Shown here piece by piece: positions 25,011 through 53,551 of a DNA stretch of 64,000 nucleotides. The DNA is taken from NCBI RefSeq assembly GCF_028858725.1, contig NC_084789.1:42129594-42193593 (forward strand). The letters are read 5' to 3'. Positions within the stretch are counted from its first letter, which is position 1, and every line of letters starts with the position of its first letter. Below the pieces are notes generated by a model that ran no database searches, was not told the origin of the DNA, and saw nothing but the letters and a program-made list of their open reading frames with translations. Origin of the DNA: Colius striatus (Eukaryota > Chordata > Aves > Coliiformes > Coliidae). Made by a program: the position numbers and the translations under genes.

Positions 25011-25194
25011 CTGCAAGGCCTGATTTCCACTGACTCAGGAGGAGCAGAGAATGTCTTCCTCAGCTCAAAAACGCACTGACTGGAAGGGACCCACTGCCCT
25101 GTGTCCCATCTTCCCTTTCCTCTACGATTCATGATAGGTCTGCTTATACTCCCCCCTTACTCCTGCCACGCAAGACACTCTTCCTTCCTTGACA

Positions 25195-25350: not shown

Positions 25351-25523
25351 TCATCCTCAATGACGGAGCTGTCAGCGGCGGCCGCGCAGGGCCGTGCCGT
25401 GCCGTGCCGGGAGGGAAGGGGAGGGGAGGGGAGAGAAGGGGGCGTTGTGGAGGAGGCGGCGGGGCCGGAGCCCAGGGCCGGGGCTGGCTGGGCACAGCGA
25501 GGCGCGGGCGGCGGAGCGGCGGG

Positions 25524-26342
25524 ATGCGGCGGGGCCGGGGCGCGGGGCTGGCCGGGCTGGCCGCGCTGCTGCTGGGTGCGCGGGGCTGCGGGGGGCCGGG
25601 GCTGAGCCTGGGGGTCCCCGCAGCTCCCTCGGCGCTTCCTCACCGACCTCTATCCCGAAGCGGCCTCCCGTCTTTCCCTCCCTCTGCTGCAGCCCCCACA
25701 GAACCCAGCGCTCGCTTCTGTGTCCGGCGCTCGCTCTTTCCTGCCTTTCCCCGGGCTCCTGCCGGATCGCCCATCAGTCGTTGCTTCCCGCTCGCCGCGT
25801 CCTCCCTCTTTTGCCTTTGCTTCCCTTTCCTTCCTCAACACGTCCAGCCTTCCCCCGGCGTTCTCGCACTCGGCTCTCCCACAGCAATTAAGGGCCACTT
25901 CCATCGGGGCACCTGCTGACAGCCTGTGCAAACTCCTCTCCTCATCACGTCGGGACGCTGCTGGCGGCGGCTGCGGGCTTAGTTCGGGCAGCAGCAGGCA
26001 GAGCTGGGCAGAGCAGCTTTGGAGCGCTTTTCCTTCTTTTCTCTCGGCAGTGGCTGCGGGCAGAGCCCAGGTGCAGCAGGAGCCGCGGGCAGAGACCAGC
26101 GAGGAGATCGGCATCACCATCAATTGCTCTCACCCCAGCATCAACTCCTATGACTATATCCACTGGTACCGTCAGTTCCCGGGCCGAGGTCCCGAGTGGC
26201 TCGTGAGCGCTCTCCGAGGGTCCCAGGAGCTGCGGTCGCCGTCGGGGCGGCTGTCGGTGTCGGCAGACCGGCGGTCCAGCGGGCTGCGGCTCTCCCGGCC
26301 CCGGCGCGGGGACGCGGCCGTGTACTGGTGCGCCGTGGGAGA
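25524..26342 (+). CDS. TRAV: TCR alpha-type V segment V-A, unit 1
   Basis: Germline V segment of an alpha/delta T-cell receptor, joined somatically to a J segment to form the antigen-binding domain. Leader exon 25524-25575 (hydrophobic, [10 protein letters not shown]); donor G|GTGCGC; phase-1 intron 25576-26050; V exon 26051-26342. The spliced protein has Cys43, Trp56 (HWYRQFPG), and Tyr109/Cys111 in VYWCAV, the canonical V-domain residues, with an N-glycosylation sequon at Asn42. The alpha-like CAV end favours TRAV, but TRDV use cannot be excluded. Leader and V exon are very GC and CpG rich. No TATA box seen. The upstream neighbour is the divergent keratin of the preceding unit, except in this first unit, where a decayed keratin 3' end is found. 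Confidence 0.87.
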
Positions 26343-26381
26343 CACGGGGAGAGGAGCCGGGGCTGCGGCCGGGCACGAACC
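26343..26381 (+). promoter_or_regulatory. 23-bp recombination signal of V-A, unit 1
   Basis: Heptamer CACGGGG, 23-bp spacer, nonamer GCACGAACC (6 of 9 consensus positions). CAC is kept, but heptamer positions 4 and 6 are off consensus. Confidence 0.75.
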
Positions 26382-26447
26382 GCCGCGGGCGGCACGGCGG
26401 GGCCGACAGGGGGCGCTGCCGCCCGCCGCTCCGGCAGCACCGGGACA

Positions 26448-26790
26448 GCGACACCGACACAGAGACACAGGCGTAGAGATACGGACACACGGACACGGAC
26501 ACACAGACACAGGACACAGGCGTAGAGATACGGACACAGGGACACGGACACACAGACACAGGACACAGGCGTAGAGATACGGACACAGGGACACGGACAC
26601 ACAGACACAGGACACAGAGACACAGGCGTAGAGATACGGACACAGGGACACGGACACACAGACACAGGACACAGGCGTAGAGATACGGACACAGGGACAC
26701 AGACACACAGACACAGGGACACGGACACAGAGACTTAGAGATACGGGCTCAGAGACATAGGGACACGGATGTGGGGACATGGACACGGGA
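26448..26790 (+). repeat. Minisatellite with 49-bp period (unit 1)
   Basis: The landmark gcgtagagatac occurs at 26471, 26520, 26569, 26626 and 26675, giving steps of 49, 49, 57 and 49 bp. The motif is built of ggacaca-type hexamers. The 57-bp step contains an extra 8-bp agagacac. Confidence 0.95.
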
Positions 26791-27579
26791 ACCGTGACAC
26801 CCTCCAGTTACAGAGTTTCACGGGGCTTTCCAAATGTTCCCGAGAGTGTTATAAAGTCACGCCACATCCACAGCCAGAGGAGAAGGGGATGTGGAGGTCA
26901 CAGGCACTGCCACTCGCTCACTACAGCTGCCCGGGGTTGTCAGAACCAGCTTGTTTGGTTGGACTCGGCACCTTTGGAGTTGAGGCCCGGGAGACAGGCA
27001 AAAGCTCTGGGCTGGACACCCTGACCATAACCTCAGGATTTGCCAGGTTCCTACTCCGTGAGTGAGTCCAACACGGATTTGCTGAGTTGCCCCAAGGGGC
27101 TGGGGGTCTGAGGTGAGTGAGAGCTGTCAGGAGGCCTCTGGCAAGAGACTGTGGGCTCCAGTCAGTCCCCAGCCAGTGGCTCAAGGAGCTGACAGAGCTG
27201 TTCAAAACCCCTGGTCACACGCTTCTGAGGCACAGAGTGAAGGATCACCCTGCACTCTGTCCCGTCTGGGCTTGATAACTGTGTTTCCAGGGAACAACTG
27301 ACACAGGGGCAAACAAGGCAGAGCAACTGCCTTGGCCAGGCAAGCACATGGATCAGCCCCATGCTCACATGTGGTCTGCCCCTCTGCTTCCTCTCTCCAC
27401 TTGTCTCCCAGCATCTGTTTCTGATGTCCAGCAGCTCCTGACTTGAAGGGATGGCAGAAGCCCAGCAGTAGCCTGACTGCCCAGAGAAGAGCCCTCCCAG
27501 TGCTAAACAACCTCTCCTTGGCCCTTGCACACCTGATACACAGGGAAGGTTGAAGTCTGGGGGTTTTCCCTTGTGCTGA

Positions 27580-27900
27580 GCATTTCACCAACAGTAATTT
27601 CACCCCTACAGAGCTTCCTCATAGCAGAGCTGTGCAGTCCCAAGCACCGCAGACTCAGAAGTCTCTCCTTTTCCTTCCCTCCCATTACACCCATTCCAAG
27701 CTGCCCCTCCAGCCTTCTCTTCCCCAGGCTGAACACCAACAGCCCTCGCAGCCCATCCTCCCAGGAAAGATGCTCCGGTCCCTGCCCCGTCTTGCTGGCC
27801 TCGCTGCATTAACCATCATGAGGAAGGAGGATCGGGTGCCTTGTGCTGCTGGCCATGCTCTTCCCACTGCAGCCCAGGGTGCTCTTGGCCTTCCTTGCCA
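27580..27900 (-). mobile_element. Old CR1-like fragment in the array unit (copies at about 34,366, 41,140 and 47,930)
   Basis: Contains agccttctcttccccaggct, then gaacaccaacagccctcgca and ccaggaaagatgctccggtc, matching the reversed CR1 3' region. Heavily diverged and duplicated with the array. Confidence 0.65.
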
Positions 27901-28990
27901 CGAGGGTTCATTGCCCCAGCAGGCTCGGGAACAGCCACGAGCCGCCAAAACGGAGCGGGACACAGCAGTGAGAGCTCAGGAGAAGTGTCCCCACTGCCTG
28001 TGCAGCTCGGACTCTTCCCTCAGCACTCACCAGCCGCCGCTGTTGGAGGAGGGGGCTCTTGTTATGCTGAGTCTGTATTGCACAGCCCCTTTTGGCCCTG
28101 CTCAGGGGAAGCTGTGTGGGAAGCTGTCAGCAGCAGCCACGCTGGCAGCCGGCAGGGACTGATGTCAGCTCAGGAGCCACGGTAGCAACTGAGGGCCCCG
28201 AGGCCTTCAGGGGTGCCAAAGAAAACTCGGGCTGTGTTCCTGTCCAACCGTGTCTCTGTGAGGTACTGGAAGGGGCTGAGAAGCCCCTTGGGCACCCAAA
28301 TGGGTAAGGAAGCTGTGGATTGGATTCCCCCCCCCCCCCCCAACCCCAAGCAAGGCAGTTCAGCTGTGTGCTCATCCTCAGCTGCACTCCCCCAGCTCTG
28401 AGGGTGCATTCAGGATCTGGCAGGGAATGCAGGACACCTGGGAGGGCCAAGACTGCCAAGTGATATCTGCAGCTCAGCAGCAGCCAGGCCCCAGCTCCTG
28501 TATGGGAGAGAGATGTTGGTTCCCAGGGGACTGAGGAAAGAAACAGGAGATGAGGGAAACAGAAGAGCCTCCTGTTCCCAGAAGATCCCAGAATCTGAGG
28601 CCTCCTGAGGGAAGGTGGGTACCCTGGGTGGGCAGAAAGCCTCTGAGCTGCCCCTTGTCCCAGCAGTGGCTGTGCAGCAGAGCAGGCGCCTGGAGCTGGG
28701 GAGGTGAGGGCTGCCCTGTGAGCTGAGCAGGAACAGCCCCTTCCCAGCACCAGCACCCCTGGGGCCCTCTCTGGGGAGATGCTGATGCTGCCTTTGGCTG
28801 AGGCAGCCACAGGGCTGGCTGCTGCAGGAGGGAAAAGCCCAGAAGGAGCCTTGCAGGCACAGCAAGGACAGAGCTCTGCTCTTCTTCCTTTGCTCCCCCA
28901 GCAGAGTGGTTTCCTGCAGCTCTGTCATCTCGGGGCTGGGAGCTGCTTTGCTCACTCTCTCACACAGCAAACAGGCAGCTTGGTCTCAGC

Positions 28991-29617
28991 ATGCACCTGG
29001 GATCCCTCGTCCTCACTGTCCTTCTGGGGACACTGCTGGGTAAGTCCTGCCTTTTTTTCCTCAGCACCTACTTCTTCTTCTTCTGGCAAAACCCTCAGCA
29101 GCTTCATCAGACCATGTGGGGAAATACTCTTGAAAGCCAGGAAAGCTGTGATAAATGTCAGCTGGCATTTGTGGCTCTGCCCTGCTTCTCTCAAGGTGCT
29201 CTTGCTGTTGGTAGGCAGAAAGCAGAGATACCTCAGAAACCTTCTCTGTCTCCTAGGGAGGGGAGAGGCCCTTTGAACCCTCTCTCTACCTCTCTCTTCT
29301 GATCCATCTGCTCTGTGCTTTCTTCCAGGCACCATGGGGCAGGTCACCGTCACCCAGCCACAAAGAGAAGTCACACTGCAGCAGGGGGACTCCTTCAAAA
29401 CTACCTGCACATACCAGAGCTCTGGCTTCGATGGCTTGCTCTGGTACCAGCAGAAGAAAGGCCAAGCTCCCCAGCTGCTCTCGTATCAAGCAAGATCTGA
29501 CCAGAAGGTCACTGGCCGTTTCAGGACTGTGCTGAACACCACAGGGAAATACAGCCTCCTGCAGCTGGAGGAAGTCGAGGTCTCTGACAGTGCCTTGTAC
29601 CTCTGTGCTGTGCAAGA
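28991..29617 (+). CDS. TRAV: TCR alpha-type V segment V-B, unit 1
   Basis: Leader exon 28991-29039 ([16 protein letters not shown]) ends G|GTAAGT. Phase-1 intron 29040-29328. V exon 29329-29617. Canonical Cys43, Trp55 ([12 protein letters not shown]) and YLCAV with Cys109; sequon at Asn86 (NTT). CDR1 carries SSGFDG and CDR2 QARSD. An ATG inside the V exon (29334) is residue 19 of the spliced protein and not the start. The keratin at 30277 lies tail-to-tail downstream, its polyadenylation signal only about 225 bp past the recombination signal. Confidence 0.9.
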
Positions 29618-29656
29618 CACCGCAGTGCAGGGAGCTTCCTTGGCTGTGCAACAACC
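29618..29656 (+). promoter_or_regulatory. 23-bp recombination signal of V-B, unit 1
   Basis: CACCGCA, 23-bp spacer, GCAACAACC (7 of 9). An alternative reading three bases on (CGCAGTG with ACAACCCAG) has a better heptamer tail but loses the critical CAC. Confidence 0.7.
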
Positions 29657-30276
29657 CAGGGCAGGGAGGGGATGTTCTTGCTCAGCTGCTGGAGACAGTG
29701 GCTGCAAGGGCCCCACTGCCCCATGTGGCAGCTCCTCATTGCTCTGGCACTGATCGAAGCCCAGCTTGTGCCCCCACCTTGTCCCTGCCACCCAAGGCCC
29801 TGCCTTTGCTCCTTGGCAACACGAGGCAGTGCCCACCAGGAAAAGGATTATTCAGAGGCAGAGGCTGGGATGCAGAAAACTTTAATGACTCTGAGGTGGG
29901 AAATCTCTAGAGGAGGCTCCCAGAGCAGGAAGAGCAGCAGCAGCAGCAGCTGCAGAAAGTCTGTGCCCATCACCCACAGGGGAGATCCCACAGGGCATCC
30001 AGCTGCCTGCCCCACGCAGGGACGGGGGCCAGCTGATGCCCCAGCTTGGCTCGGGGGCTCCCACAGCCCAGCAGAACAGGAGACAGGAGATGGGAGAGAG
30101 AATAAGGCAGGGAAGCGAGACGTTGGCCCTGGTTTCAGAGAGCCCCAGGTGCCCTCCTGTGCAAGGGCAGCCCTGGCTGCTCAGCCTCTGCCAAAGCGAT
30201 GGCCGTGAGCTGTGTCCTCAGTCCAGCATCTCGGCTGGATTCCTGGAGGTCCTCGTCCGGGCTGGCAGCAGCGGCT

Positions 30277-30573
30277 TTAGCAGGGGGAGGATCTCCTGCC
30301 ACAGTAGCGGCTGGTGATGCTGGAGAGGTCAAAGCCCCCGGAGGAGATGGGCACTCCCTGGCTGCTGAGGATGCTGCCAGCGGCGGCGGAGGTGGAGGAG
30401 CCCACAACGGTGTTCTGAGGGAAGGAGCTGAGGATGGGGCCGGGCAGGGTCAGCACCACAGCAGGAGGCTCGATGACCACGTTGGAGCTCTGGCACTGCC
30501 TGACACAGGGCTCAGTGCAGCTGTTGGCCAGCGGGGTCGGGCCGCAGGGCTGGCACGAGCTGTAGCAGGACAT
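30277..30573 (-). CDS. Feather beta-keratin, 98 aa (array 2, unit 1)
   Basis: A fourth subgroup: head [33 protein letters not shown] in the core (Glu-Pro-Pro instead of Gln-Pro-Ser) and tail [15 protein letters not shown]. Exon 2 starts at 30593 (acceptor CCCAG), the intron is 30594-30914 (321 bp) and exon 1 is 30915 to about 30955. TATA (minus) 30977-30983. ATTAAA (minus) 29881-29886, giving a 3'UTR of about 400 bp. It diverges from the V-A segment of the next unit. Confidence 0.93.
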
Positions 30574-30976
30574 GGCTGGCGCTGGCGTTTCACCTGGGAC
30601 ACAACAAGGAGGGAGCAGAGCACACGCTGGCTGAGGAGCAGCCTGGGGACACTGGCACGAGGCGGCCACGGGCACGACCGAGTGGGGAGCTGGAAGCTGT
30701 GCCAGCAGCCACACGCTCTGCATCGCTCTCCACAGAGCAGCCTGCACGTGGGAAGCTCCCTCCAAGTTCCCAAACCGAGTCAGACCTCTCCCTTCTTTCC
30801 ATTGGCACGAGAAGAAGAACCAGAGCCCAGGACAGGATGGAGCACTCTCAGCAGAGAGGTTTCTGGAGGAGAGATCCCTCTTTGGAAGGGGAAGAGAAGG
30901 GGCTTCAGACTCACCTGTTCCCGAGGAGGAGAAGGAGGCAGGAGAAGCGGATGAGAGAGCAGGGACTTGGGCTGCC

Positions 30977-31130
30977 TTTTATAGCTGCCCTTCGTGGCTG
31001 CAGGACCTGAGGCAGCCTTTGCAGAGGTAACAATTTGCTGACGCACTCGCCTGAAATGCAAACCGTGGCAGCTAATGATATGGGCTGTGCTTTCATTTCC
31101 AACGCTGCTGCCTTTTCATTTCCAGCTCTG
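30977..31130 (-). promoter_or_regulatory. Keratin promoter in the keratin/V-A interval, unit 1
   Basis: TATAAAA at 30977-30983 (minus), an octamer-like GTTTGCAT at 31056-31063, ATCATTAGC near 31,075, and two GGAAATGAAA blocks, the distal one followed by GGCAGCAG at about 31,110. Copies lie at 37751-37904, 44536-44689 and 51318-51471. Confidence 0.75.
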
Positions 31131-31904
31131 GGCCATGCCCACTCCCCAGTGAAGGCTGCTTCTGAGCTCTGGGATGAAAGGCCCCAGCATTTCCAAGGCA
31201 GGAATGCAGCAGTGCGGGCAGCAGACTCAGCTCAAGTGCTGGAGGGGTCCAGCGCAGGCAGTTGGTGTCAGCCTGGGCCACTCCGGAGGGGCCGTCGGAA
31301 GCGTCATTCTCAGGAAGAGGATGCAGCCCTCCTCAGCTGGCTGTCCCAGAGCTGCCAAGCTTGAGCATGGGCCATGTCCAGCTCTTTCCCTCCTTCAGAG
31401 GCTCAGCCTGAGGGGCACTCGTTGTTGCCTCCATAGCTGTTGTGGGGTGTCTCGTTGGCTTTGCCCCCCTCCTCCCTAACATGGACCTCAGGAAAAGCAT
31501 CTGGCCTGTTTTCCCTCGTCTCTTTTGTGTGCTGCCTGAGAGCTCACAAAGAACGGCGTGGGCATGGCTGGGGCTTTTCTTTGCCCAGAATGCCTGAGCC
31601 CTGATGCAGTTGTCCCCGTCTGCCCTCAGCAGAGTCCACACTCTGCTCTGGTCCTTGTGTGTGTTTTTGAGCAGCTGCGTTTGTGTGAACGTCGGGGGTT
31701 TGTGTCTGGGGTAGAAGTAAGACCTTGCAGCCAGACGTGCTGGGGAGTCCCTGTGTGGGAAGCAGATGCCCAGAGAAGGATGTTGGGGTTGAGGAGACAG
31801 TGAGGTGAGCATAAGCAAGAGACGTTCCCCTGCAGCAAAGAGCAAGGGCATGGTGAGCTGTGCTGGAACAAGCGCTGTCAGCAGGGGCAGGAAAGTGTCC
31901 GTGA

Positions 31905-32100
31905 CTGTGTGTCCCCTGTGGGACCACGTCTGGAGTTCTGCGTCCAGACTGGAGCTCCCTGGGCCAGGGAGGACGCGGACGTCCTGAGCAGGGTCCCACC
32001 AAGGCCTCGCAGGGTGCGGGGGCCCTGTCACAGCTGAGCTGGGCTGGGAGCGCAGAGAGGCAGCTGAAGGGAGGCTGTCGGCAGAGCCCCGGAGCCGTGT
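31905..32100 (+). mobile_element. Old CR1-like fragment upstream of V-A (copies at about 38,679, 45,464 and 52,246)
   Basis: Degraded CR1 ORF2-like sequence (accacgtctggagttctgcg, ccagactggagctccctggg). It is part of the 1.3-kb interval between the keratin promoter and the next V-A leader; otherwise I see nothing in that interval. Confidence 0.5.
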
Positions 32101-32309
32101 GAGGCCGGGCGAGGGGCCGCTGGGGGCTGAGCCCCGGGGCGGAGCTGTCAGCGGCGGCCGCGCAGGGCCGTGCCGTGCCGTGCCGTGCCGTGCCGGGAGG
32201 GGAGGGGAGGGGAGGGGAGAGAAGGGGGCGTTGTGGAGGAGGCGGCGGGGCCGGAGCCCAGGGCCGGGGCTGGCTGGGCACAGCGAGGCGCGGGCGGCGG
32301 AGCGGCGGG

Positions 32310-33128
32310 ATGCGGCGGGGCCGGGGCGCGGGGCTGGCCGGGCTGGCCGCGCTGCTGCTGGGTGCGCGGGGCTGCGGGGGGCCGGGGCTGAGCCTGGGGG
32401 TCCCCGCAGCTCCCTCGGCGCTTCCTCACCGACCTCTATCCCGAAGCGGCCTCCCGTCTTTCCCTCCCTCTGCTGCAGCCCCCACAGAACCCAGCGCTCG
32501 CTTCTGTGTCCGGCGCTCGCTCTTTCCTGCCTTTCCCCGGGCTCCTGCCGGATCGCCCATCAGTCGTTGCTTCCCGCTCGCCGCGTCCTCCCTCTTTTGC
32601 CTTTGCTTCCCTTTCCTTCCTCAACACGTCCAGCCTTCCCCCGGCGTTCTCGCACTCGGCTCTCCCACAGCAATTAAGGGCCACTTCCATCGGGGCACCT
32701 GCTGACAGCCTGTGCAAACTCCTCTCCTCATCACGTCGGGACGCTGCTGGCGGCGGCTGCGGGCTTAGTTCGGGCAGCAGCAGGCAGAGCTGGGCAGAGC
32801 AGCTTTGGAGCGCTTTTCCTTCTTTTCTCTCGGCAGTGGCTGCGGGCAGAGCCCAGGTGCAGCAGGAGCCGCGGGCAGAGACCAGCGAGGAGATCGGCAT
32901 CACCATCAATTGCTCTCACCCCAGCATCAACTCCTATGACTATATCCACTGGTACCGTCAGTTCCCGGGCCGAGGTCCCGAGTGGCTCGTGAGCGGTCAC
33001 AAAGGGTCCCAGGAGCTGCGGTCGCCGTCGGGGCGGCTGTCGGTGTCGGCAGACCGGCGGTCCAGCGGGCTGCGGCTCTCCCGGCCCCGGCGCGGGGACG
33101 CGGCCGTGTACTGGTGTGCCGTGGGAGA
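32310..33128 (+). CDS. TRAV: TCR alpha-type V segment V-A, unit 2 (variant CDR2)
   Basis: Leader exon 32310-32361, intron 32362-32836, V exon 32837-33128. Unlike all four sister copies, the CDR2 codons read Gly-His-Lys in place of Ala-Leu-Arg (residues 71-73): four base changes in three adjacent codons. The only other V-exon difference noticed is a silent TGC-to-TGT at Cys111. Frame and splice sites are intact. Confidence 0.87.
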
Positions 33129-33167
33129 CACGGGGAGAGGAGCCGGGGCTGCGGCCGGGCACGAACC
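33129..33167 (+). promoter_or_regulatory. 23-bp recombination signal of V-A, unit 2
   Basis: Same CACGGGG-23-GCACGAACC as unit 1. Confidence 0.75.
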
Positions 33168-33233
33168 GCCGCGGGCGGCACGGCGGGGCCGACAGGGGGC
33201 GCTGCCGCCCGCCGCTCCGGCAGCACCGGGACA

Positions 33234-33576
33234 GCGACACCGACACAGAGACACAGGCGTAGAGATACGGACACACGGACACGGACACACAGACACAGGA
33301 CACAGGCGTAGAGATACGGACACACGGACACGGACACACAGACACAGGACACAGGCGTAGAGATACGGACACAGGGACACGGACACACAGACACAGGACA
33401 CAGGCGTAGAGATACGGACACAGGGACACGGACACACAGACACAGGACACAGAGACACAGGCGTAGAGATACGGACACAGGGACACAGACACACAGACAC
33501 AGGGACACGGACACAGAGACTTAGAGATACGGGCTCAGAGACATAGGGACACGGATGTGGGGACATGGACACGGGA
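33234..33576 (+). repeat. Minisatellite with 49-bp period (unit 2)
   Basis: Landmarks at 33257, 33306, 33355, 33404 and 33461: steps 49, 49, 49, 57. The long step is last here, whereas it is third in units 1, 3 and 4. Confidence 0.95.
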
Positions 33577-35764: not shown

Positions 35765-36391
35765 ATGCACCTGGGATCCCTCGTCCTCACTGTCCTTCTG
35801 GGGACACTGCTGGGTAAGTCCTGCCTTTTTTTCCTCAGCACCTACTTCTTCTTCTTCTGGCAAAACCCTCAGCAGCTTCATCAGACCATGTGGGGAAATA
35901 CTCTTGAAAGCCAGGAAAGCTGTGATAAATGTCAGCTGGCATTTGTGGCTCTGCCCTGCTTCTCTCAAGGTGCTCTTGCTGTTGGAAGGCAGAAAGCAGA
36001 GATACTTCAGAAACCTTCTCTGTCTCCTAGGGAGGGGAGAGGCCCTTTGAACCCTCTCTCTGCCTCTCTCTTCTGATCCATCTGCTCTTTGCTTTCTTCC
36101 AGGCACCATGGGGCAGGTCACCGTCACCCAGCCACAAAGAGAAGTCACACTGCAGCAGGGGGACTCCTTCAAAACTACCTGCACATACCAGAGCTCTGGC
36201 TTCTATGGCTTGTTCTGGTACCAGCAGAAGAAAGGCCAAGCTCCCCAGCTGCTCTCGTATCAAGCAAGATCTGACCAGAAGGTCACTGGCCGTTTCAGGA
36301 CTGTGCTGAACACCACAGGGAAATACAGCCTCCTGCAGCTGGAGGAAGTCGAGGTCTCTGACAGTGCCTTGTACCTCTGTGCTGTGCAAGA
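35765..36391 (+). CDS. TRAV: TCR alpha-type V segment V-B, unit 2
   Basis: Leader 35765-35813, V exon 36103-36391. Two residues differ from unit 1: Asp51 to Tyr in CDR1 and Leu54 to Phe beside the conserved Trp55. Recombination signal and frame are intact. Confidence 0.9.
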
Positions 36392-36430
36392 CACCGCAGT
36401 GCAGGGAGCTTCCTTGGCTGTGCAACAACC
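36392..36430 (+). promoter_or_regulatory. 23-bp recombination signal of V-B, unit 2
   Basis: CACCGCA-23-GCAACAACC, unchanged. Confidence 0.7.
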
Positions 36431-37050
36431 CAGGGCAGGGAGGGGATGTTCTTGCTCAGCTGCTGGAGACAGTGGCTGCAAGGGCCCCACTGCCCCATGT
36501 GGCAGCTCCTCATTGCTCTGGCACTGATCGAAGCCCAGCTTGTGCCCCCACCTTGTCCCTGCCACCCAAGGCCCTGCCTTTGCTCCTTGGCAACACGAGG
36601 CAGTGCCCACCAGGAAAAGGATTATTCAGAGGCAGAGGCTGGGATGCAGAAAACTTTAATGACTCTGAGGTGGGAAATCTCTAGAGGAGGCTCCCAGAGC
36701 AGGAAGAGCAGCAGCAGCAGCAGCTGCAGAAAGTCTGTGCCCATCACCCACAGGGGAGATCCCACAGGGCATCCAGCTGCCTGCCCCACGCAGGGACGGG
36801 GGCCAGCTGATGCCCCAGCTTGGCTCGGGGGCTCCCACAGCCCAGCAGAACAGGAGACAGGAGATGGGAGAGAGAATAAGGCAGGGAAGCGAGACGTTGG
36901 CCCTGGTTTCAGAGAGCCCCAGGTGCCCTCCTGTGCAAGGGCAGCCCTGGCTGCTCAGCCTCTGCCAAAGCGATGGCCGTGAGCTGTGTCCTCAGTCCAG
37001 CATCTCGGCTGGATTCCTGGAGGTCCTCGTCCGGGCTGGCAGCAGCGGCT

Positions 37051-37347
37051 TTAGCAGGGGGAGGATCTCCTGCCACAGTAGCGGCTGGTGATGCTGGAGA
37101 GGTCAAAGCCCCCGGAGGAGATGGGCACTCCCTGGCTGCTGAGGATGCTGCCAGCGGCGGCGGAGGTGGAGGAGCCCACAACGGTGTTCTGAGGGAAGGA
37201 GCTGAGGATGGGGCCGGGCAGGGTCAGCACCACAGCAGGAGGCTCGATGACCACGTTGGAGCTCTGGCACTGCCTGACACAGGGCTCAGTGCAGCTGTTG
37301 GCCAGCGGGGTCGGGCCGCAGGGCTGGCACGAGCTGTAGCAGGACAT
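37051..37347 (-). CDS. Feather beta-keratin, 98 aa (array 2, unit 2)
   Basis: Protein identical to the unit 1 copy. TATA (minus) 37751-37757, intron 37368-37688, ATTAAA (minus) at 36655-36660. Confidence 0.93.
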
Positions 37348-39083: not shown

Positions 39084-39902
39084 ATGCGGCGGGGCCGGGG
39101 CGCGGGGCTGGCCGGGCTGGCCGCGCTGCTGCTGGGTGCGCGGGGCTGCGGGGGGCCGGGGCTGAGCCTGGGGGTCCCCGCGGCTCCCTCGGCGCTTCCT
39201 CACCGACCTCTATCCCGAAGCGGCCTCCCGTCTTTCCCTCCCTCTGCTGCAGCCCCCACAGAACCCAGCGCTCGCTTCTGTGTCCGGCGCTCGCTCTTTC
39301 CTGCCTTTCCCCGGGCTCCTGCCGGATCGCCCATCAGTCGTTGCTTCCCGCTCGCCGCGTCCTCCCTCTTTTGCCTTTGCTTCCCTTTCCTTCCTCAACA
39401 CGTCCAGCCTTCCCCCGGCGTTCTCGCACTCGGCTCTCCCACAGCAATTAAGGGCCACTTCCATCGGGGCACCTGCTGACAGCCTGTGCAAACTCCTCTC
39501 CTCATCACGTCGGGACGCTGCTGGCGGCGGCTGCGGGCTTAGTTCGGGCAGCAGCAGGCAGAGCTGGGCAGAGCAGCTTTGGAGCGCTTTTCCTTCTTTT
39601 CTCTCGGCAGTGGCTGCGGGCAGAGCCCAGGTGCAGCAGGAGCCGCGGGCAGAGACCAGCGAGGAGATCGGCATCACCATCAATTGCTCTCACCCCAGCA
39701 TCAACTCCTATGACTATATCCACTGGTACCGTCAGTTCCCGGGCCGAGGTCCCGAGTGGCTCGTGAGCGCTCTCCGAGGGTCCCAGGAGCTGCGGTCGCC
39801 GTCGGGGCGGCTGTCGGTGTCGGCAGACCGGCGGTCCAGCGGGCTGCGGCTCTCCCGGCCCCGGCGCGGGGACGCGGCCGTGTACTGGTGCGCCGTGGGA
39901 GA
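39084..39902 (+). CDS. TRAV: TCR alpha-type V segment V-A, unit 3
   Basis: Leader exon 39084-39135, V exon 39611-39902. The V exon protein equals unit 1 (Ala-Leu-Arg CDR2). One intronic A-to-G (39,182) is shared with unit 5. Confidence 0.87.
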
Positions 39903-39941
39903 CACGGGGAGAGGAGCCGGGGCTGCGGCCGGGCACGAACC
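39903..39941 (+). promoter_or_regulatory. 23-bp recombination signal of V-A, unit 3
   Basis: CACGGGG-23-GCACGAACC. Confidence 0.75.
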
Positions 39942-40007
39942 GCCGCGGGCGGCACGGCGGGGCCGACAGGGGGCGCTGCCGCCCGCCGCTCCGGCAGCAC
40001 CGGGACA

Positions 40008-40350
40008 GCGACACCGACACAGAGACACAGGCGTAGAGATACGGACACACGGACACGGACACACAGACACAGGACACAGGCGTAGAGATACGGACACAGG
40101 GACACGGACACACAGACACAGGACACAGGCGTAGAGATACGGACACAGGGACACGGACACACAGACACAGGACACAGAGACACAGGCGTAGAGATACGGA
40201 CACAGGGACACGGACACACAGACACAGGACACAGGCGTAGAGATACGGACACAGGGACACAGACACACAGACACAGGGACACGGACACAGAGACTTAGAG
40301 ATACGGGCTCAGAGACATAGGGACACGGATGTGGGGACATGGACACGGGA
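40008..40350 (+). repeat. Minisatellite with 49-bp period (unit 3)
   Basis: Same step order as unit 1 (49, 49, 57, 49). Confidence 0.95.
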
Positions 40351-42549: not shown

Positions 42550-43176
42550 ATGCACCTGGGATCCCTCGTCCTCACTGTCCTTCTGGGGACACTGCTGGGT
42601 AAGTCCTGCCTTTTTTTCCTCAGCACCTACTTCTTCTTCTTCTGGCAAAACCCTCAGCAGCTTCATCAGACCATGTGGGGAAATACTCTTGAAAGCCAGG
42701 AAAGCTGTGATAAATGTCAGCTGGCATTTGTGGCTCTGCCCTGCTTCTCTCAAGGTGCTCTTGCTGTTGGTAGGCAGAAAGCAGAGATACCTCAGAAACC
42801 TTCTCTGTCTCCTAGGGAGGGGAGAGGCCCTTTGAACCCTCTCTCTACCTCTCTCTTCTGATCCATCTGCTCTGTGCTTTCTTCCAGGCACCATGGGGCA
42901 GGTCACCGTCACCCAGCCACAAAGAGAAGTCACACTGCAGCAGGGGGACTCCTTCAAAACTACCTGCACATACCAGAGCTCTGGCTTCAATGGCTTGCTC
43001 TGGTACCAGCAGAAGAAAGGCCAAGCTCCCCAGCTGCTCTCGTATCAAGCAAGATCTGACCAGAAGGTCACTGGCCGTTTCAGGACTGTGCTGAACACCA
43101 CAGGGAAATACAGCCTCCTGCAGCTGGAGGAAGTCGAGGTCTCTGACAGTGCCTTGTACCTCTGTGCTGTGCAAGA
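42550..43176 (+). CDS. TRAV: TCR alpha-type V segment V-B, unit 3
   Basis: Leader 42550-42598, V exon 42888-43176. One residue differs from unit 1: Asp51 to Asn in CDR1. Intron and flank variants match unit 1, not unit 2. Confidence 0.9.
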
Positions 43177-43215
43177 CACCGCAGTGCAGGGAGCTTCCTT
43201 GGCTGTGCAACAACC
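43177..43215 (+). promoter_or_regulatory. 23-bp recombination signal of V-B, unit 3
   Basis: CACCGCA-23-GCAACAACC. Confidence 0.7.
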
Positions 43216-43835
43216 CAGGGCAGGGAGGGGATGTTCTTGCTCAGCTGCTGGAGACAGTGGCTGCAAGGGCCCCACTGCCCCATGTGGCAGCTCCTCATTG
43301 CTCTGGCACTGATCGAAGCCCAGCTTGTGCCCCCACCTTGTCCCTGCCACCCAAGGCCCTGCCTTTGCTCCTTGGCAACACGAGGCAGTGCCCACCAGGA
43401 AAAGGATTATTCAGAGGCAGAGGCTGGGATGCAGAAAACTTTAATGACTCTGAGGTGGGAAATCTCTAGAGGAGGCTCCCAGAGCAGGAAGAGCAGCAGC
43501 AGCAGCAGCTGCAGAAAGTCTGTGCCCATCACCCACAGGGGAGATCCCACAGGGCATCCAGCTGCCTGCCCCACGCAGGGACGGGGGCCAGCTGATGCCC
43601 CAGCTTGGCTCGGGGGCTCCCACAGCCCAGCAGAACAGGAGACAGGAGATGGGAGAGAGAATAAGGCAGGGAAGCGAGACGTTGGCCCTGGTTTCAGAGA
43701 GCCCCAGGTGCCCTCCTGTGCAAGGGCAGCCCTGGCTGCTCAGCCTCTGCCAAAGCGATGGCCGTGAGCCGTGTCCTCAGTCCAGCATCTCGGCTGGATT
43801 CCTGGAGGTCCTCGTCCGGGCTGGCAGCAGCGGCT

Positions 43836-44132
43836 TTAGCAGGGGGAGGATCTCCTGCCACAGTAGCGGCTGGTGATGCTGGAGAGGTCAAAGCCCCCGG
43901 AGGAGATGGGCACTCCCTGGCTGCTGAGGATGCTGCCAGCGGCGGCGGAGGTGGAGGAGCCCACAACGGTGTTCTGAGGGAAGGAGCTGAGGATGGGGCC
44001 GGGCAGGGTCAGCACCACAGCAGGAGGCTCGATGACCACGTTGGAGCTCTGGCACTGCCTGACACAGGGCTCAGTGCAGCTGTTGGCCAGCGGGGTCGGG
44101 CCGCAGGGCGGGCACGAGCTGTAGCAGGACAT
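43836..44132 (-). CDS. Feather beta-keratin, 98 aa (array 2, unit 3)
   Basis: One residue differs from its sisters: Gln8 to Pro in the head (SSCPPCGP), from one base change at about 44,110. TATA (minus) 44536-44542. Confidence 0.93.
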
Positions 44133-45873: not shown

Positions 45874-46692
45874 ATGCGGCGGGGCCGGGGCGCGGGGCTG
45901 GCCGGGCTGGCCGCGCTGCTGCTGGGTGCGCGGGGCTGCGGGGGGCCGGGGCTGAGCCTGGGGGTCCCCGCAGCTCCCTCGGCGCTTCCTCACCGACCTC
46001 TATCCCGAAGCGGCCTCCCGTCTTTCCCTCCCTCTGCTGCAGCCCCCACAGAACCCAGCGCTCGCTTCTGTGTCCGGCGCTCGCTCTTTCCTGCCTTTCC
46101 CCGGGCTCCTGCCGGATCGCCCATCAGTCGTTGCTTCCCGCTCGCCGCGTCCTCCCTCTTTTGCCTTTGCTTCCCTTTCCTTCCTCAACACGTCCAGCCT
46201 TCCCCCGGCGTTCTCGCACTCGGCTCTCCCACAGCAATTAAGGGCCACTTCCATCGGGGCACCTGCTGACAGCCTGTGCAAACTCCTCTCCTCATCACGT
46301 CGGGACGCTGCTGGCGGCGGCTGCGGGCTTAGTTCGGGCAGCAGCAGGCAGAGCTGGGCAGAGCAGCTTTGGAGCGCTTTTCCTTCTTTTCTCTCGGCAG
46401 TGGCTGCGGGCAGAGCCCAGGTGCAGCAGGAGCCGCGGGCAGAGACCAGCGAGGAGATCGGCATCACCATCAATTGCTCTCACCCCAGCATCAACTCCTA
46501 TGACTATATCCACTGGTACCGTCAGTTCCCGGGCCGAGGTCCCGAGTGGCTCGTGAGCGCTCTCCGAGGGTCCCAGGAGCTGCGGTCGCCGTCGGGGCGG
46601 CTGTCGGTGTCGGCAGACCGGCGGTCCAGCGGGCTGCGGCTCTCCCGGCCCCGGCGCGGGGACGCGGCCGTGTACTGGTGCGCCGTGGGAGA
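45874..46692 (+). CDS. TRAV: TCR alpha-type V segment V-A, unit 4
   Basis: Leader exon 45874-45925, V exon 46401-46692. The protein equals unit 1. The upstream GGGGA tract is the longest of the five copies (about 45,745-45,785). Confidence 0.87.
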
Positions 46693-46731
46693 CACGGGGA
46701 GAGGAGCCGGGGCTGCGGCCGGGCACGAACC
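46693..46731 (+). promoter_or_regulatory. 23-bp recombination signal of V-A, unit 4
   Basis: CACGGGG-23-GCACGAACC. Confidence 0.75.
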
Positions 46732-46797
46732 GCCGCGGGCGGCACGGCGGGGCCGACAGGGGGCGCTGCCGCCCGCCGCTCCGGCAGCACCGGGACA

Positions 46798-47140
46798 GCG
46801 ACACCGACACAGAGACACAGGCGTAGAGATACGGACACACGGACACGGACACACAGACACAGGACACAGGCGTAGAGATACGGACACAGGGACACGGACA
46901 CACAGACACAGGACACAGGCGTAGAGATACGGACACAGGGACACGGACACACAGACACAGGACACAGAGACACAGGCGTAGAGATACGGACACAGGGACA
47001 CGGACACACAGACACAGGACACAGGCGTAGAGATACGGACACAGGGACACAGACACACAGACACAGGGACACGGACACAGAGACTTAGAGATACGGGCTC
47101 AGAGACATAGGGACACGGATGTGGGGACATGGACACGGGA
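46798..47140 (+). repeat. Minisatellite with 49-bp period (unit 4)
   Basis: Same step order as units 1 and 3. Confidence 0.95.
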
Positions 47141-49331
47141 ACCGTGACACCCTCCAGTTACAGAGTTTCACGGGGCTTTCCAAATGTTCCCGAGAGTGTT
47201 ATAAAGTCACGCCACATCCACAGCCAGAGGAGAAGGGGATGTGGAGGTCACAGGCACTGCCACTCGCTCACTACAGCTGCCCGGGGTTGTCAGAACCAGC
47301 TTGTTTGGTTGGACTCGGCACCTTTGGAGTTGAGGCCCGGGAGACAGGCAAAAGCTCTGGGCTGGACACCCTGACCATAACCTCAGGAGTTGCCAGGTTC
47401 CTACTCCGTGAGTGAGTCCAACACGGATTTGCTGAGTTGCCCCAAGGGGCTGGGGGTCTGAGGTGAGTGAGAGCTGTCAGGAGGCCTCTGGCAAGAGACT
47501 GTGGGCTCCAGTCAGTCCCCAGCCAGTGGCTCAAGGAGCTGACAGAGCTGTTCAAAACCCCTGGTCACACGCTTCTGAGGCACAGAGTGAAGGATCACCC
47601 TGCACTCTGTCCCGTCTGGGCTTGATAACTGTGTTTCCAGGGAACAACTGACACAGGGGCAAACAAGGCAGAGCAACTGCCTTGGCCAGGCAAGCACATG
47701 GATCAGCCCCATGCTCACATGTGGTCTGCCCCTCTGCTTCCTCTCTCCACTTGTCTCCCAGCATCTGTTTCTGATGTCCAGCAGCTCCTGACTTGAAGGG
47801 ATGGCAGAAGCCCAGCAGTAGCCTGACTGCCCAGAGAAGAGCCCTCCCAGTGCTAAACAACCTCTCCTTGGCCCTTGCACACCTGATACACAGGGAAGGT
47901 TGAAGTCTGGGGGTTTTCCCTTGTGCTGAGCATTTCACCAACAGTAATTTCACCCCTACAGAGCTTCCTCATAGCAGAGCTGTGCAGTCCCAAGCACCGC
48001 AGACTCAGAAGTCTCTCCTTTTCCTTCCCTCCCATTACACCCATTCCAAGCTGCCCCTCCAGCCTTCTCTTCCCCAGGCTGAACACCAACAGCCCTCGCA
48101 GCCCATCCTCCCAGGAAAGATGCTCCGGTCCCTGCCCCGTCTTGCTGGCCTCGCTGCATTAACCATCATGAGGAAGGAGGATCGGGTGCCTTGTGCTGCT
48201 GGCCATGCTCTTCCCACTGCAGCCCAGGGTGCTCTTGGCCTTCCTTGCCACGAGGGTTCATTGCCCCAGCAGGCTCGGGAACAGCCACGAGCCGCCAAAA
48301 CGGAGCGGGACACAGCAGTGAGAGCTCAGGAGAAGTGTCCCCACTGCCTGTGCAGCTCGGACTCTTCCCTCAGCACTCACCAGCCGCCGCTGTTGGAGGA
48401 GGGGGCTCTTGTTATGCTGAGTCTGTATTGCACAGCCCCTTTTGGCCCTGCTCAGGGGAAGCTGTGTGGGAAGCTGTCAGCAGCAGCCACGCTGGCAGCC
48501 GGCAGGGACTGATGTCAGCTCAGGAGCCACGGTAGCAACTGAGGGCCCCGAGGCCTTCAGGGGTGCCAAAGAAAACTCAGGCTGTGTTCCTGTCCAACCG
48601 TGTCTCTGTGAGGTACTGGAAGGGGCTGAGAAGCCCCTTGGGCATCCAAATGGGTAAGCAAGCTGTGGATTGGATCCCCCCCCCCCCCCAGCCGGGCTGT
48701 TCAGCTGTGTGCTCATCCTCAGCTGCACTCCACCAGCTCTGAGGGTGCATTCAGGATCTGGCAGGGAATGCAGGACACCTGGGAGGGCCAAGACTGCCAA
48801 GTGATATCTGCAGCTCAGCAGCAGCCAGGCCCCAGCTCCTGTATGGGAGAGAGATGTTGGTTCCCAGGGGACTGAGGAAAGAAACAGGAGATGAGGGAAA
48901 CAGAAGAGCCTCCTGTTCCCAGAAGATCCCAGAATCTGAGGCCTCCTGAGGGAAGGTGGGTACCCTGGGTGGGCAGAAAGCCTCTGAGCTGCCCCTTGTC
49001 CCAGCAGTGGCTGTGCAGCAGAGCAGGCGCCTGGAGCTGGGGAGGTGAGGGCTGCCCTGTGAGCTGAGCAGGAACAGCCCCTTCCCAGCACCAGCACCCC
49101 TGGGGCCCTCCCTGGGGAGATGCTGATGCTGCCTTTGGCTGAGGCAGCCACAGGGCTGGCTGCTGCAGGAGGGAAAAGCCCAGAAGGAGCCTTGCAGGCA
49201 CAGCAAGGACAGAGCTCTGCTCTTCTTCCTTTGCTCCCCCAGCAGAGTGGTTTCCTGCAGCTCTGTCATCTCGGGGCTGGGAGCTGCTTTGCTCACTCTC
49301 TCACACAGCAAACAGGCAGCTTGGTCTCAGC

Positions 49332-49958
49332 ATGCACCTGGGATCCCTCGTCCTCACTGTCCTTCTGGGGACACTGCTGGGTAAGTCCTGCCTTTTTTTC
49401 CTCAGCACCTACTTCTTCTTCTTCTGGCAAAACCCTCAGCAGCTTCATCAGACCATGTGGGGAAATACTCTTGAAAGCCAGGAAAGCTGTGATAAATGTC
49501 AGCTGGCATTTGTGGCTCTGCCCTGCTTCTCTCAAGGTGCTCTTGCTGTTGGTAGGCAGAAAGCAGAGATACTTCAGAAACCTTCTCTGTCTCCTAGGGA
49601 GGGGAGAGGCCCTTTGAACCCTCTCTCTGCCTCTCTCTTCTGATCCATCTGCTCTGTGCTTTCTTCCAGGCACCATGGGGCAGGTCACCGTCACCCAGCC
49701 ACAAAGAGAAGTCACACTGCAGCAGGGGGACTCCTTCAAAACTACCTGCACATACCAGAGCTCTGGCTTCGATGGCTTGCTCTGGTACCAGCAGAAGAAA
49801 GGCCAAGCTCCCCAGCTGCTCTCGTATCATGCAATATCTGACCAGAAGGTCACTGGCCGTTTCAGGACTGTGCTGAACACCACGGGGAAATACAGCCTCC
49901 TGCAGCTGGAGGAAGTCGAGGTCTCTGACAGTGCCTTGTACCTCTGTGCTGTGCAAGA
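49332..49958 (+). CDS. TRAV: TCR alpha-type V segment V-B, unit 4
   Basis: Leader 49332-49380, V exon 49670-49958. CDR1 equals unit 1, but CDR2 differs at two residues: Gln70 to His and Arg72 to Ile. One further difference in the V exon (ACA to ACG near 49,883) is silent. Confidence 0.9.
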
Positions 49959-49997
49959 CACCGCAGTGCAGGGAGCTTCCTTGGCTGTGCAACAACC
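49959..49997 (+). promoter_or_regulatory. 23-bp recombination signal of V-B, unit 4
   Basis: CACCGCA-23-GCAACAACC. Confidence 0.7.
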
Positions 49998-50617
49998 CAG
50001 GGCAGGGAGGGGATGTTCTTGCTCAGCTGCTGGAGACAGTGGCTGCAAGGGCCCCACTGCCCCATGTGGCAGCTCCTCATTGCTCTGGCACTGATCGAAG
50101 CCCAGCTTGTGCCCCCACCTTGTCCCTGCCACCCAAGGCCCTGCCTTTGCTCCTTGGCAACACGAGGCAGTGCCCACCAGGAAAAGGATTATTCAGAGGC
50201 AGAGGCTGGGATGCAGAAAACTTTAATGACTCTGAGGTGGGAAATCTCTAGAGGAGGCTCCCAGAGCAGGAAGAGCAGCAGCAGCAGCAGCTGCAGAAAG
50301 TCTGTGCCCATCACCCACAGGGGAGATCCCACAGGGCATCCAGCTGCCTGCCCCACGCAGGGACGGGGGCCAGCTGATGCCCCAGCTTGGCTCGGGGGCT
50401 CCCACAGCCCAGCAGAACAGGAGACAGGAGATGGGAGAGAGAATAAGGCAGGGAAGCGAGACGTTGGCCCTGGTTTCAGAGAGCCCCAGGTGCCCTCCTG
50501 TGCAAGGGCAGCCCTGGCTGCTCAGCCTCTGCCAAAGCGATGGCCGTGAGCTGTGTCCTCAGTCCAGCATCTCGGCTGGATTCCTGGAGGTCCTCGTCCG
50601 GGCTGGCAGCAGCGGCT

Positions 50618-50914
50618 TTAGCAGGGGGAGGATCTCCTGCCACAGTAGCGGCTGGTGATGCTGGAGAGGTCAAAGCCCCCGGAGGAGATGGGCACTCCCT
50701 GGCTGCTGAGGATGCTGCCAGCGGCGGCGGAGGTGGAGGAGCCCACAACGGTGTTCTGAGGGAAGGAGCTGAGGATGGGGCCGGGCAGGGTCAGCACCAC
50801 AGCAGGAGGCTCGATGACCACGTTGGAGCTCTGGCACTGCCTGACACAGGGCTCAGTGCAGCTGTTGGCCAGCGGGGTCGGGCCGCAGGGCTGGCACGAG
50901 CTGTAGCAGGACAT
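50618..50914 (-). CDS. Feather beta-keratin, 98 aa (array 2, unit 4)
   Basis: Protein identical to units 1 and 2. TATA (minus) 51318-51324, intron 50935-51255. It diverges from the last V-A copy at 52641. Confidence 0.93.
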
Positions 50915-52640
50915 GGCTGGCGCTGGCGTTTCACCTGGGACACAACAAGGAGGGAGCAGAGCACACGCTGGCTGAGGAGCAGCCTGGGGACACTGGCACG
51001 AGGCGGCCACGGGCACGACCGAGTGGGGAGCTGGAAGCTGTGCCAGCAGCCACACGCTCTGCATCGCTCTCCACAGAGCAGCCTGCACGTGGGAAGCTCC
51101 CTCCAAGTTCCCAAACCGAGTCAGACCTCTCCCTTCTTTCCATTGGCACGAGAAGAAGAACCAGAGCCCAGGACAGGACGGAGCACTCTCAGCAGAGAGG
51201 TTTCTGGAGGAGAGATCCCTCTTTGGAAGGGGAAGAGAAGGGGCTTCAGACTCACCTGTTCCCGAGGAGGAGAAGGAGGCAGGAGAAGCGGATGAGAGAG
51301 CAGGGACTTGGGCTGCCTTTTATAGCTGCCCTTCGTGGCTGCAGGACCTGAGGCAGCCTTTGCAGAGGTAACAATTTGCTGACGCACTCGCCTGAAATGC
51401 AAACCGTGGCAGCTAATGATATGGGCTGTGCTTTCATTTCCAACGCTGCTGCCTTTTCATTTCCAGCTCTGGGCCATGCCCACTCCCCAGTGAAGGCTGC
51501 TTCTGAGCTCTGGGATGAAAGGCCCCAGCGTTTCCAAGGCAGGAATGCAGCAGTGCGGGCAGCAGACTCAGCTCAAGTGCTGGAGGGGTCCAGCGCAGGC
51601 AGTTGGTGTCAGCCTGGGCCACTCCGGAGGGGCCGTCGGAAGCGTCATTCTCAGGAAGAGGATGCAGCCCTCCTCAGCTGGCTGTCCCAGAGCTGCCAAG
51701 CTTGAGCATGGGCCATGTCCAGCTCTTTCCCTCCTTCAGAGGCTCAGCCTGAGGGGCACTCGTTGTTGCCTCCATAGCTGTTGTGGGGTGTCTCGTTGGC
51801 TTTGCCCCCCTCCTCCCTAACATGGACCTCAGGAAAAGCATCTGGCCTGTTTTCCCTCGTCTCTTTTGTGTGCTGCCTGAGAGCTCACAAAGAACGGCGT
51901 GGGCATGGCTGGGGCTTTTCTTTGCCCAGAATGCCTGAGCCCTGATGCAGTTGTCCCCGTCTGCCCTCAGCAGAGTCCACACTCTGCTCTGGTCCTTGTG
52001 TGTGTTTTTGAGCAGCTGCGTTTGTGTGAACGTCGGGGGTTTGTGTCTGGGGTAGAAGTAAGACCTTGCAGCCAGACGTGCTGGGGAGTCCCTGTGTGGG
52101 AAGCAGATGCCCAGAGAAGGATGTTGGGGTTGAGGAGACAGTGAGGTGAGCATAAGCAAGAGACGTTCCCCTGCAGCAAAGAGCAAGGGCATGGTGAGCT
52201 GTGCTGGAACAAGCGCTGTCAGCAGGGGCAGGAAAGTGTCCGTGACTGTGTGTCCCCTGTGGGACCACGTCTGGAGTTCTGCGTCCAGACTGGAGCTCCC
52301 TGGGCCAGGGAGGACGCGGACGTCCTGAGCAGGGTCCCACCAAGGCCTCGCAGGGTGCGGGGGCCCTGTCACAGCTGAGCTGGGCTGGGAGCGCAGAGAG
52401 GCAGCTGAAGGGAGGCTGTCGGCAGAGCCCCGGAGCCGTGTGAGGCCGGGCGAGGGGCCGCTGGGGGCTGAGCCCCGGGGCGGAGCTGTCAGCGGCGGCC
52501 GCGCAGGGCCGTGCCGTGCCGGGAGGGAAGGGGAGGGGAGGGGAGGGGAGAGAAGGGGGCGTTGTGGAGGAGGCGGCGGGGCCGGAGCCCAGGGCCGGGG
52601 CTGGCTGGGCACAGCGAGGCGCGGGCGGCGGAGCGGCGGG

Positions 52641-53459
52641 ATGCGGCGGGGCCGGGGCGCGGGGCTGGCCGGGCTGGCCGCGCTGCTGCTGGGTGCGCGG
52701 GGCTGCGGGGGGCCGGGGCTGAGCCTGGGGGTCCCCGCGGCTCCCTCGGCGCTTCCTCACCGACCTCTATCCCGAAGCGGCCTCCCGTCTTTCCCTCCCT
52801 CTGCTGCAGCCCCCACAGAACCCAGCGCTCGCTTCTGTGTCCGGCGCTCGCTCTTTCCTGCCTTTCCCCGGGCTCCTGCCGGATCGCCCATCAGTCGTTG
52901 CTTCCCGCTCGCCGCGTCCTCCCTCTTTTGCCTTTGCTTCCCTTTCCTTCCTCAACACGTCCAGCCTTCCCCCGGCGTTCTCGCACTCGGCTCTCCCACA
53001 GCAATTAAGGGCCACTTCCATCGGGGCACCTGCTGACAGCCTGTGCAAACTCCTCTCCTCATCACGTCGGGACGCTGCTGGCGGCGGCTGCGGGCTTAGT
53101 TCGGGCAGCAGCAGGCAGAGCTGGGCAGAGCAGCTTTGGAGCGCTTTTCCTTCTTTTCTCTCGGCAGTGGCTGCGGGCAGAGCCCAGGTGCAGCAGGAGC
53201 CGCGGGCAGAGACCAGCGAGGAGATCGGCATCACCATCAATTGCTCTCACCCCAGCATCAACTCCTATGACTATATCCACTGGTACCGTCAGTTCCCGGG
53301 CCGAGGTCCCGAGTGGCTCGTGAGCGCTCTCCGAGGGTCCCAGGAGCTGCGGTCGCCGTCGGGGCGGCTGTCGGTGTCGGCAGACCGGCGGTCCAGCGGG
53401 CTGCGGCTCTCCCGGCCCCGGCGCGGGGACGCGGCCGTGTACTGGTGCGCCGTGGGAGA
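52641..53459 (+). CDS. TRAV: TCR alpha-type V segment V-A, unit 5 (array end)
   Basis: Leader exon 52641-52692, V exon 53168-53459, intact. Unlike units 1-4 it is not followed by the minisatellite, V-B or the array-type keratin: the repeat ends at about 53,551 in the words cgccgctccgg. Its upstream GC tract (gggagggaagg) resembles unit 1 more than units 2-4. Confidence 0.87.
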
Positions 53460-53498
53460 CACGGGGAGAGGAGCCGGGGCTGCGGCCGGGCACGAACC
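53460..53498 (+). promoter_or_regulatory. 23-bp recombination signal of V-A, unit 5
   Basis: CACGGGG-23-GCACGAACC. Confidence 0.75.
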
Positions 53499-53551
53499 GC
53501 CGCGGGCGGCACGGCGGGGCCGACAGGGGGCGCTGCCGCCCGCCGCTCCGG

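Follow-up and report, generated by a model that had tools for sequence, protein, structure and literature searches.

How feather keratin genes come to lie among the variable (V) segments of a T cell receptor (TCR) locus, and whether the two families can grow as one, is the question raised by a stretch of DNA from the bird Colius striatus. The stretch, here called the window, comprises 64,000 bases without any N (NC_084789.1, positions 42,129,594 to 42,193,593; C39:42129594-42193593 in the contig names used below) and belongs to a genome assembly of 1.21 Gb in 191 contigs. A first-pass annotation had read the window as carrying two TRAV-type V segments and one feather keratin gene co-amplified in each repeat unit, and comparison of the window with itself shows this directly: positions 25364-53551 form an uninterrupted direct tandem array with four full units of 6.77-6.79 kb.

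The composite tandem unit

Read from left to right, a full unit consists of a V segment on the + strand (V-A), a 49-bp minisatellite, a second V segment on the + strand (V-B) at 2.6 kb from V-A, and a feather keratin gene on the - strand. A fifth V-A closes the array, the whole holding five V-A and four V-B (all +) and four keratins (-). From the start of one copy to that of the next the distances are 6786, 6774, 6790 and 6767 bases, and the four full units are mutually 99.6-99.8% identical. Because 21.4 kb of the window aligns with itself at an offset of one unit with 99.2% identity, a chance match is excluded for this arrangement. Both ends of the array carry a V-A segment of 1.07 kb, the two being 99.4% alike. 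The features of the array are as follows, with each V segment starting at its leader ATG:

25364..53551: whole array; V-A, then four times V-B / keratin / V-A
25524..26381, + strand: V-A copy 1; leader exon 25524-25575, V exon 26051-26342, recombination signal sequence (RSS) with 23-base spacer 26343-26381 (CACGGGG / GCACGAACC)
32310..33167, + strand: V-A copy 2; GHK in the second complementarity-determining region (CDR2) in place of ALR
39084..39941, + strand: V-A copy 3
45874..46731, + strand: V-A copy 4
52641..53498, + strand: V-A copy 5, without a full unit behind it
26451-26757, 33231-33543, 40011-40317 and 46801-47107: 49-bp minisatellite, 3' of V-A in every full unit
28991..29656, + strand: V-B copy 1; leader exon 28991-29039, V exon 29329-29617, 23-RSS 29618-29656 (CACCGCA / GCAACAACC)
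35765..36430, + strand: V-B copy 2
42550..43215, + strand: V-B copy 3
49332..49997, + strand: V-B copy 4
30277..30573, - strand: feather keratin 1, ATG at 30573; TATAAA at -410, splice donor of the 5' untranslated region (UTR) at -344 and poly(A) signal at +687, all counted from the ATG
37051..37347, - strand: feather keratin 2, ATG at 37347; protein identical to keratin 1
43836..44132, - strand: feather keratin 3, ATG at 44132; a single replacement, Q to P
50618..50914, - strand: feather keratin 4, ATG at 50914; protein identical to keratin 1

Behind V-A copy 5 no minisatellite was reported; the homology of this copy to the units stops at 53551.

The nine intact V segments and four keratins counted by the first-pass annotation were all recovered as open (five of five V-A, four of four V-B, four of four keratins). 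Each of the nine V segments has an open leader exon, a GT-AG intron, an open V exon and the two cysteines and tryptophan of the C..W..C motif, and the one V-A and the one V-B that were run against Pfam both matched V-set above the cut-off (1.1e-9 and 3.8e-12, respectively). An RSS with a spacer of exactly 23 bases stands directly 3' of the V exon in all nine, agreeing at 11 of 16 positions with what we take to be the consensus. The background of such 23-RSS sites over the 64 kb is 21 on the + strand, 10 of them right behind a V segment (including V-C, a further segment described below) and 11 elsewhere, and 8 on the - strand.

Among structures in the PDB, V-A is best matched by a TCR alpha chain (6lir_A, 1.2e-35, 125 bits), the next rows being antibodies with 95 bits or less; 6lir is presumably a chicken TCR, for which a literature look-up gave no confirmation. 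The ranking for V-B is headed by an engineered multi-domain antibody, through summation over weaker domains. Its best natural TCR matches are alpha chains of mucosal-associated invariant T (MAIT) receptors, TRAV1 and TRAV1-2, with a few unnamed chains of equal score (72-76 bits), while other TCR chains reach 52-63 bits. By these comparisons, V-A and V-B are closer to TCR alpha than to other immunoglobulin or TCR V segments. In the alignment, V-B (29329-29617) is similar to TRAV1 of mammals, which supplies the V segment of MAIT receptors. According to the relevant part of PMC12562908, MR1 is absent from birds, save chicken YF1, which is possibly MR1-like; a TRAV1-like bird V segment without MR1 may interest MAIT researchers.

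All four array keratins are open over 98 amino acids, and the copy run against Pfam matches Keratin (PF02422) at 1.6e-33. TATAAA, the 5' UTR splice donor and the poly(A) signal are found at common offsets in the four copies. A search by start motif, in which others could be missed, gave at least 14 open feather keratins in the window.

Place in the TRA/TRD locus

The location relative to TCR J and C genes, a check proposed by the first-pass annotation, was read from C39 in continued window coordinates. A TRDC-like exon, TRAJ-like segments and a TRAC exon follow ~14-42 kb downstream of the array on a common strand. The TRAC exon (~95935, + strand) matches residues 111-198 of 6lir_A at 2.2e-30; against PF09291 it gave an E value of 0.00068 and 20 bits, below the cut-off of 22.1. 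Eight TRAJ-like segments, each with a 12-RSS and FGxG, lie on the + strand at 76952-83746, within a search that extended up to 84000. The exon at ~67576 (+ strand) matched C1-set with an E value of 0.0026, below the cut-off, and antibody heavy chains are its best PDB matches; placed between the V segments and TRAJ, it is tentatively read as TRDC. From 53 to 77 kb, no TRDJ passed the threshold that was applied. A position of the V segments far from J and C genes is ruled out by the TRAJ and TRAC downstream on C39. The contig terminates in TTAGGG repeats at 42309093, which puts the array ~126-154 kb from a telomere. Judged by these neighbours, the array belongs to the V region of a bird TRA/TRD locus, where TRAV segments and feather keratin genes appear to be long-standing neighbours.

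Since V, J and C are co-oriented, V-to-J joining by the usual deletional route would, when an upstream V is used, excise the intervening keratins, which in T cells would leave on the excised DNA. The first-pass annotation had foreseen such a deletion, and the orientation is consistent with it; its importance was overstated, as little effect is to be expected. The loss would be somatic and T cells make no feathers, and feathers should be unaffected, as TRA is not rearranged in the cells that form them.

Non-immune genes among V segments have precedents (citations here and below refer to the relevant parts of the papers). The closest kind is the trypsin(ogen) genes intermixed with TRB genes in mammals, opossum and chicken (PMC2275272, PMC8070946), where, as here, unrelated non-immune genes lie among V segments. 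The present case differs in its TRA/TRD location, in the opposite orientation of the feather keratin and in the nearly identical 6.8 kb composite tandem unit. Olfactory receptor genes at the 5' end of the mammalian TRA/TRD locus likewise place a non-immune multigene family among TRAV, but there the genes are interspersed, and the part of the paper that deals with them does not describe one repeated composite unit (PMC2275272).

The chicken TRA/TRD locus lies on chromosome 27 and holds 72 V alpha, with its V(D)J genes on the reverse strand; TRAV1/TRAV2 pairs ~2 kb apart recur in it, much like the pairs of V-A and V-B, and long homology units are duplicated (PMC10972964). V-A has the QVQQ start of chicken TRAV1. 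However, all chicken TRAV1 but three have a single-exon leader, whereas V-A has two exons, and the VSQQ motif of chicken TRAV2 is not present in V-B (PMC10972964). Chromosome 27 also carries the largest feather keratin array of the chicken, with 50 of 61 genes on the + strand in a contig covering chr27 1-1,465,288 (PMC2894828); in a later assembly, 47 feather keratins stand in tandem over 577.6 kb (PMC4202321). The keratins described here are tandem as in the chromosome 27 arrays of chicken and zebra finch, and as in chicken they stand opposite in strand to the V(D)J genes of the same chromosome, interleaving being shown here only for the Colius striatus window. The chicken and zebra finch accounts, in the parts cited, treat the keratins alone (PMC2894828, PMC4202321); the main texts of these two papers contain none of the TCR and immunoglobulin terms looked for, the word keratin has 0 occurrences in the main text of the chicken TRA/TRD paper (PMC10972964), and topic searches of the open-licence PMC literature gave no report of keratins within TRA/TRD among the papers listed. 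That the large keratin array and the V-alpha array described on chromosome 27 of birds form a single interleaved array, already present in the bird ancestor, in which unequal crossing-over alters V and keratin numbers jointly, is a possibility to which we give slightly less than an even chance.

Other copies and the variation among them

A second copy of the locus lies at 123.4-190 kb of C40, near the start of this 89.0 Mb contig, and matches the window in reverse orientation. The identity is 99.19% over window positions 1-26722 and 99.08% over 46961-64000, with array units between, and 99.30% over 60001-84000. Single-copy stretches between keratins are 99.4-99.8% identical and the right flank 99.2%, while 10 kb taken from 30-40 kb upstream of the window reach 99.97% and the TRAC region 99.81%. 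The C40 array, at 133.8-161.9 kb, holds five V-A, four V-B and four keratins identical to the array type, and its V segments are open in nine of nine cases. The three V queries together with a scan for V motifs, by which other V families could be missed, gave 10 V segments in 200 kb of C40, nine of them inside the array; under relaxed settings, 19 TRAJ-like segments were found on this contig. The equal 5/4/4 layout makes a one-off assembly error unlikely. The C40 copy may be the other haplotype, another sex chromosome with a shared end, or a recent duplicate; by their lengths, C39 (42.3 Mb) and C40 might fit W and Z with a common pseudoautosomal end, the TRA/TRD locus standing near an end of each contig. 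Elsewhere on C39, 6 Mb inside the contig, a short open reading frame (L039 130-348) looks by eye like the tail of an endogenous retroviral envelope.

Between the four units of the window there are 37 substitution columns and seven indel events, 23 of the columns being private to one unit. Units 1 and 3 are set against units 2 and 4 at seven sites, the pattern that copying of a block of two units would produce; 1+2 against 3+4 and 1+4 against 2+3 occur at one site each. When the eight units of both arrays were compared (over 6392 columns, after removal of those with gaps or in the minisatellite), identity was 99.5-99.9% within an array and 99.0-99.4% between arrays, with 17 fixed differences. 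The higher identity within arrays suggests that each was homogenised, or amplified on its own.

The substitutions are concentrated in the loops of the V segments. CDR1 and CDR2, delimited by what we take to be the IMGT rules, hold 7 of the 37 window columns in 72 of 6755 nt (binomial 1.2e-7). When the 10 V-A and 8 V-B from the two contigs are taken together, 21 of 72 sites vary in CDR1/2, compared with 20 of 1454 others, the framework showing 10 of 509; the keratin coding sequence varies at 2 of 297 sites over the eight units. The V copies thus appear to differ mainly in CDR1 and CDR2, with little variation in leaders, introns, frameworks and keratins. In V-A, CDR1 switches blockwise between SINSYDY and NIKLNEF, so that its sites are not independent. 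The NIKLNEF type resembles the NIKLTEF of dispersed V-A copies, a likeness that suggests conversion with diverged copies as donors, selection favouring diversity, or the two together.

These dispersed copies come from a genome search with V-B, which gave at least 17 matches: four in the window, four on C40 near its start, six with 76-80% identity (two each on C40 near its end, C162 and C171) and three weak ones on C19. Three of the six relatives were read, one per contig (L035, L036 and L037), and the family counts are lower bounds. In all three a V-B exon, which is open, is followed by a keratin 3' UTR and then by V-A-side homology, at 81-89% DNA identity. The keratin of L035 is interrupted near its start by ~486 bases (L035 1542-2027), 381 of which are 86% like window positions 31699-32079, the keratin/V-A spacer of an array unit; a repeat element or some local rearrangement could account for the insertion. 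L036 and L037 have lost almost the entire keratin coding part, at the same junction. Such copies imply that the V-B/keratin/V-A unit predates their parting, and by this comparison the module is older than the array.

Two further features lie to either side of the array:

25074..25346: remnant, to the left of the array, combining the 3' flank of V-B with the 3' end of a keratin; 66% identity, E value 6.5e-16
58228..59539, + strand: V-C, a further V segment; leader 58228-58285 (by eye), V exon 59203-59500, 23-RSS from 59501

The remnant is apparently an older copy of the V-B/keratin junction. V-C is open and has a fairly good RSS, with its first Cys and conserved Trp replaced; its best TCR matches are delta chains, ranked below several antibodies. 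Adjoining the left edge of the array, an open reading frame at 24182-24868 (- strand) resembles by eye a piece of the reverse transcriptase of a CR1 long interspersed element and has no Pfam match. A separate keratin tandem array occupies positions 1-10794, with a unit of 5113 bp that is 99.88% identical and keratins that alternate in orientation (ATGs at 265+, 3215-, 5378+, 8328- and 10491+); the V-A, V-B and V-C queries gave chance-level matches only in this stretch. Further keratins are flanked by an inverted repeat of 2.07 kb (14119-16183 / 21758-23822, 99.66%), and matching stretches occur on C40.

Origin of the array and its consequences

From the sequence evidence, we regard it as very likely that the array represents a composite homology unit of a bird TRA/TRD locus that was amplified by unequal crossing-over, its V loops being diversified and its keratins carried along, still open. 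Unequal crossing-over between the V-A-bearing 1.07 kb segments would have amplified the interior of the array, and V-A segments at both ends are the leftover expected of such exchange between V-A copies. Crossing-over and conversion inside each array would maintain the likeness of its copies, CDR1 and CDR2 would owe their diversity to selection and/or to conversion with diverged V segments as donors, and the keratins would stay open and ride along as passengers. The linkage of skin and immune genes is probably such a passenger effect, not a new mechanism.

Several points weigh against this account. The crossing-over mechanism is read from one line of evidence, the structure of the array ends. 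When neighbouring changes of the same pattern are merged, the CDR excess in the window shrinks, with 3 of 32 events (P 0.005), and the V-A excess over both contigs consists largely of block changes, which leaves selection and conversion inseparable. The ratio of nonsynonymous to synonymous change (dN/dS) between keratin subgroups ranges from 0.12 to 1.36 over ten pairs, with few changes and probable conversion, and purifying selection on the keratins is therefore not demonstrated. V-A has stop codons in both of the dispersed modules in which its exon was read (the L035 stretch excludes it). Finally, the heptamers are weak, CACGGGG agreeing at 5 and CACCGCA at 4 of 7 positions with the presumed consensus.

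Weak heptamers would also suit a reading of V-A and V-B as unused relics, that is, of a keratin array with decayed immunoglobulin exons, and the corresponding part of the chicken study classes most TRAV1 as ORF (open reading frame with weak RSS) or pseudogene and gives TRAV1 a very low frequency in spleen (PMC10972964). We nevertheless hold this to be improbable: the V segments are open in nine of nine cases in the window, with splice sites, and in nine of nine on C40, their frameworks are conserved while change falls mainly in the CDRs, and J and C are within reach. That keratin dosage drove the amplification, with the V segments as passengers, is unlikely, though compatible with the amplification itself. 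The array keratins all retain open coding sequences with TATA, splice and poly(A) signals, the array at 1-10794 amplifies keratins with no V detected by the three V queries beyond chance, and bird keratin families readily expand (PMC2894828, in the part cited); yet diversity is concentrated in the V CDRs, and the dispersed modules have the keratin deleted in two of three and interrupted in the third while the V-B exon stays open, even if V-A is stopped in two of two.

An assembly artefact, by which one genuine unit became several or two haplotypes ended up in tandem, might be suspected where units are so alike, where the region is rich in repeats, including the 5.1 kb keratin array, and where the locus is present twice in one assembly. 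It is quite improbable given that the units are told apart by their substitutions and indels, many of them private, that C40 has the same layout with other unit variants and fixed differences, and that C39 continues into a telomere. A RAG-mediated or other V(D)J-linked germ-line duplication that made the unit is extremely improbable. The right edge of the array, at 53551, does sit 53 bp beyond a V-A nonamer, but a heptamer is found at neither edge, which disfavours this origin; the right edge falls near the start of the minisatellite in other copies (26434 versus 26451), and the homologous V-A segments at both ends are a sufficient explanation.

If amplification by crossing-over with keratins as passengers is accepted, the lasting consequence is likely to be genetic, in that the size of the germ-line V repertoire and the keratin dosage would change jointly. 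In the window, a skin-appendage multigene family stands physically within an antigen-receptor V array and is part of its amplifying unit. Because leaders, introns, frameworks and keratins vary so little, the array offers a clean natural case for weighing selection against conversion in recent V copies. Were the arrangement general in birds, studies of keratin and of TRAV copy number would measure one event, selection on either family would drag the other along, and the V-keratin-V unit would be a countable record of V-array growth. The dosage of immune and plumage genes would then be genetically coupled across birds.

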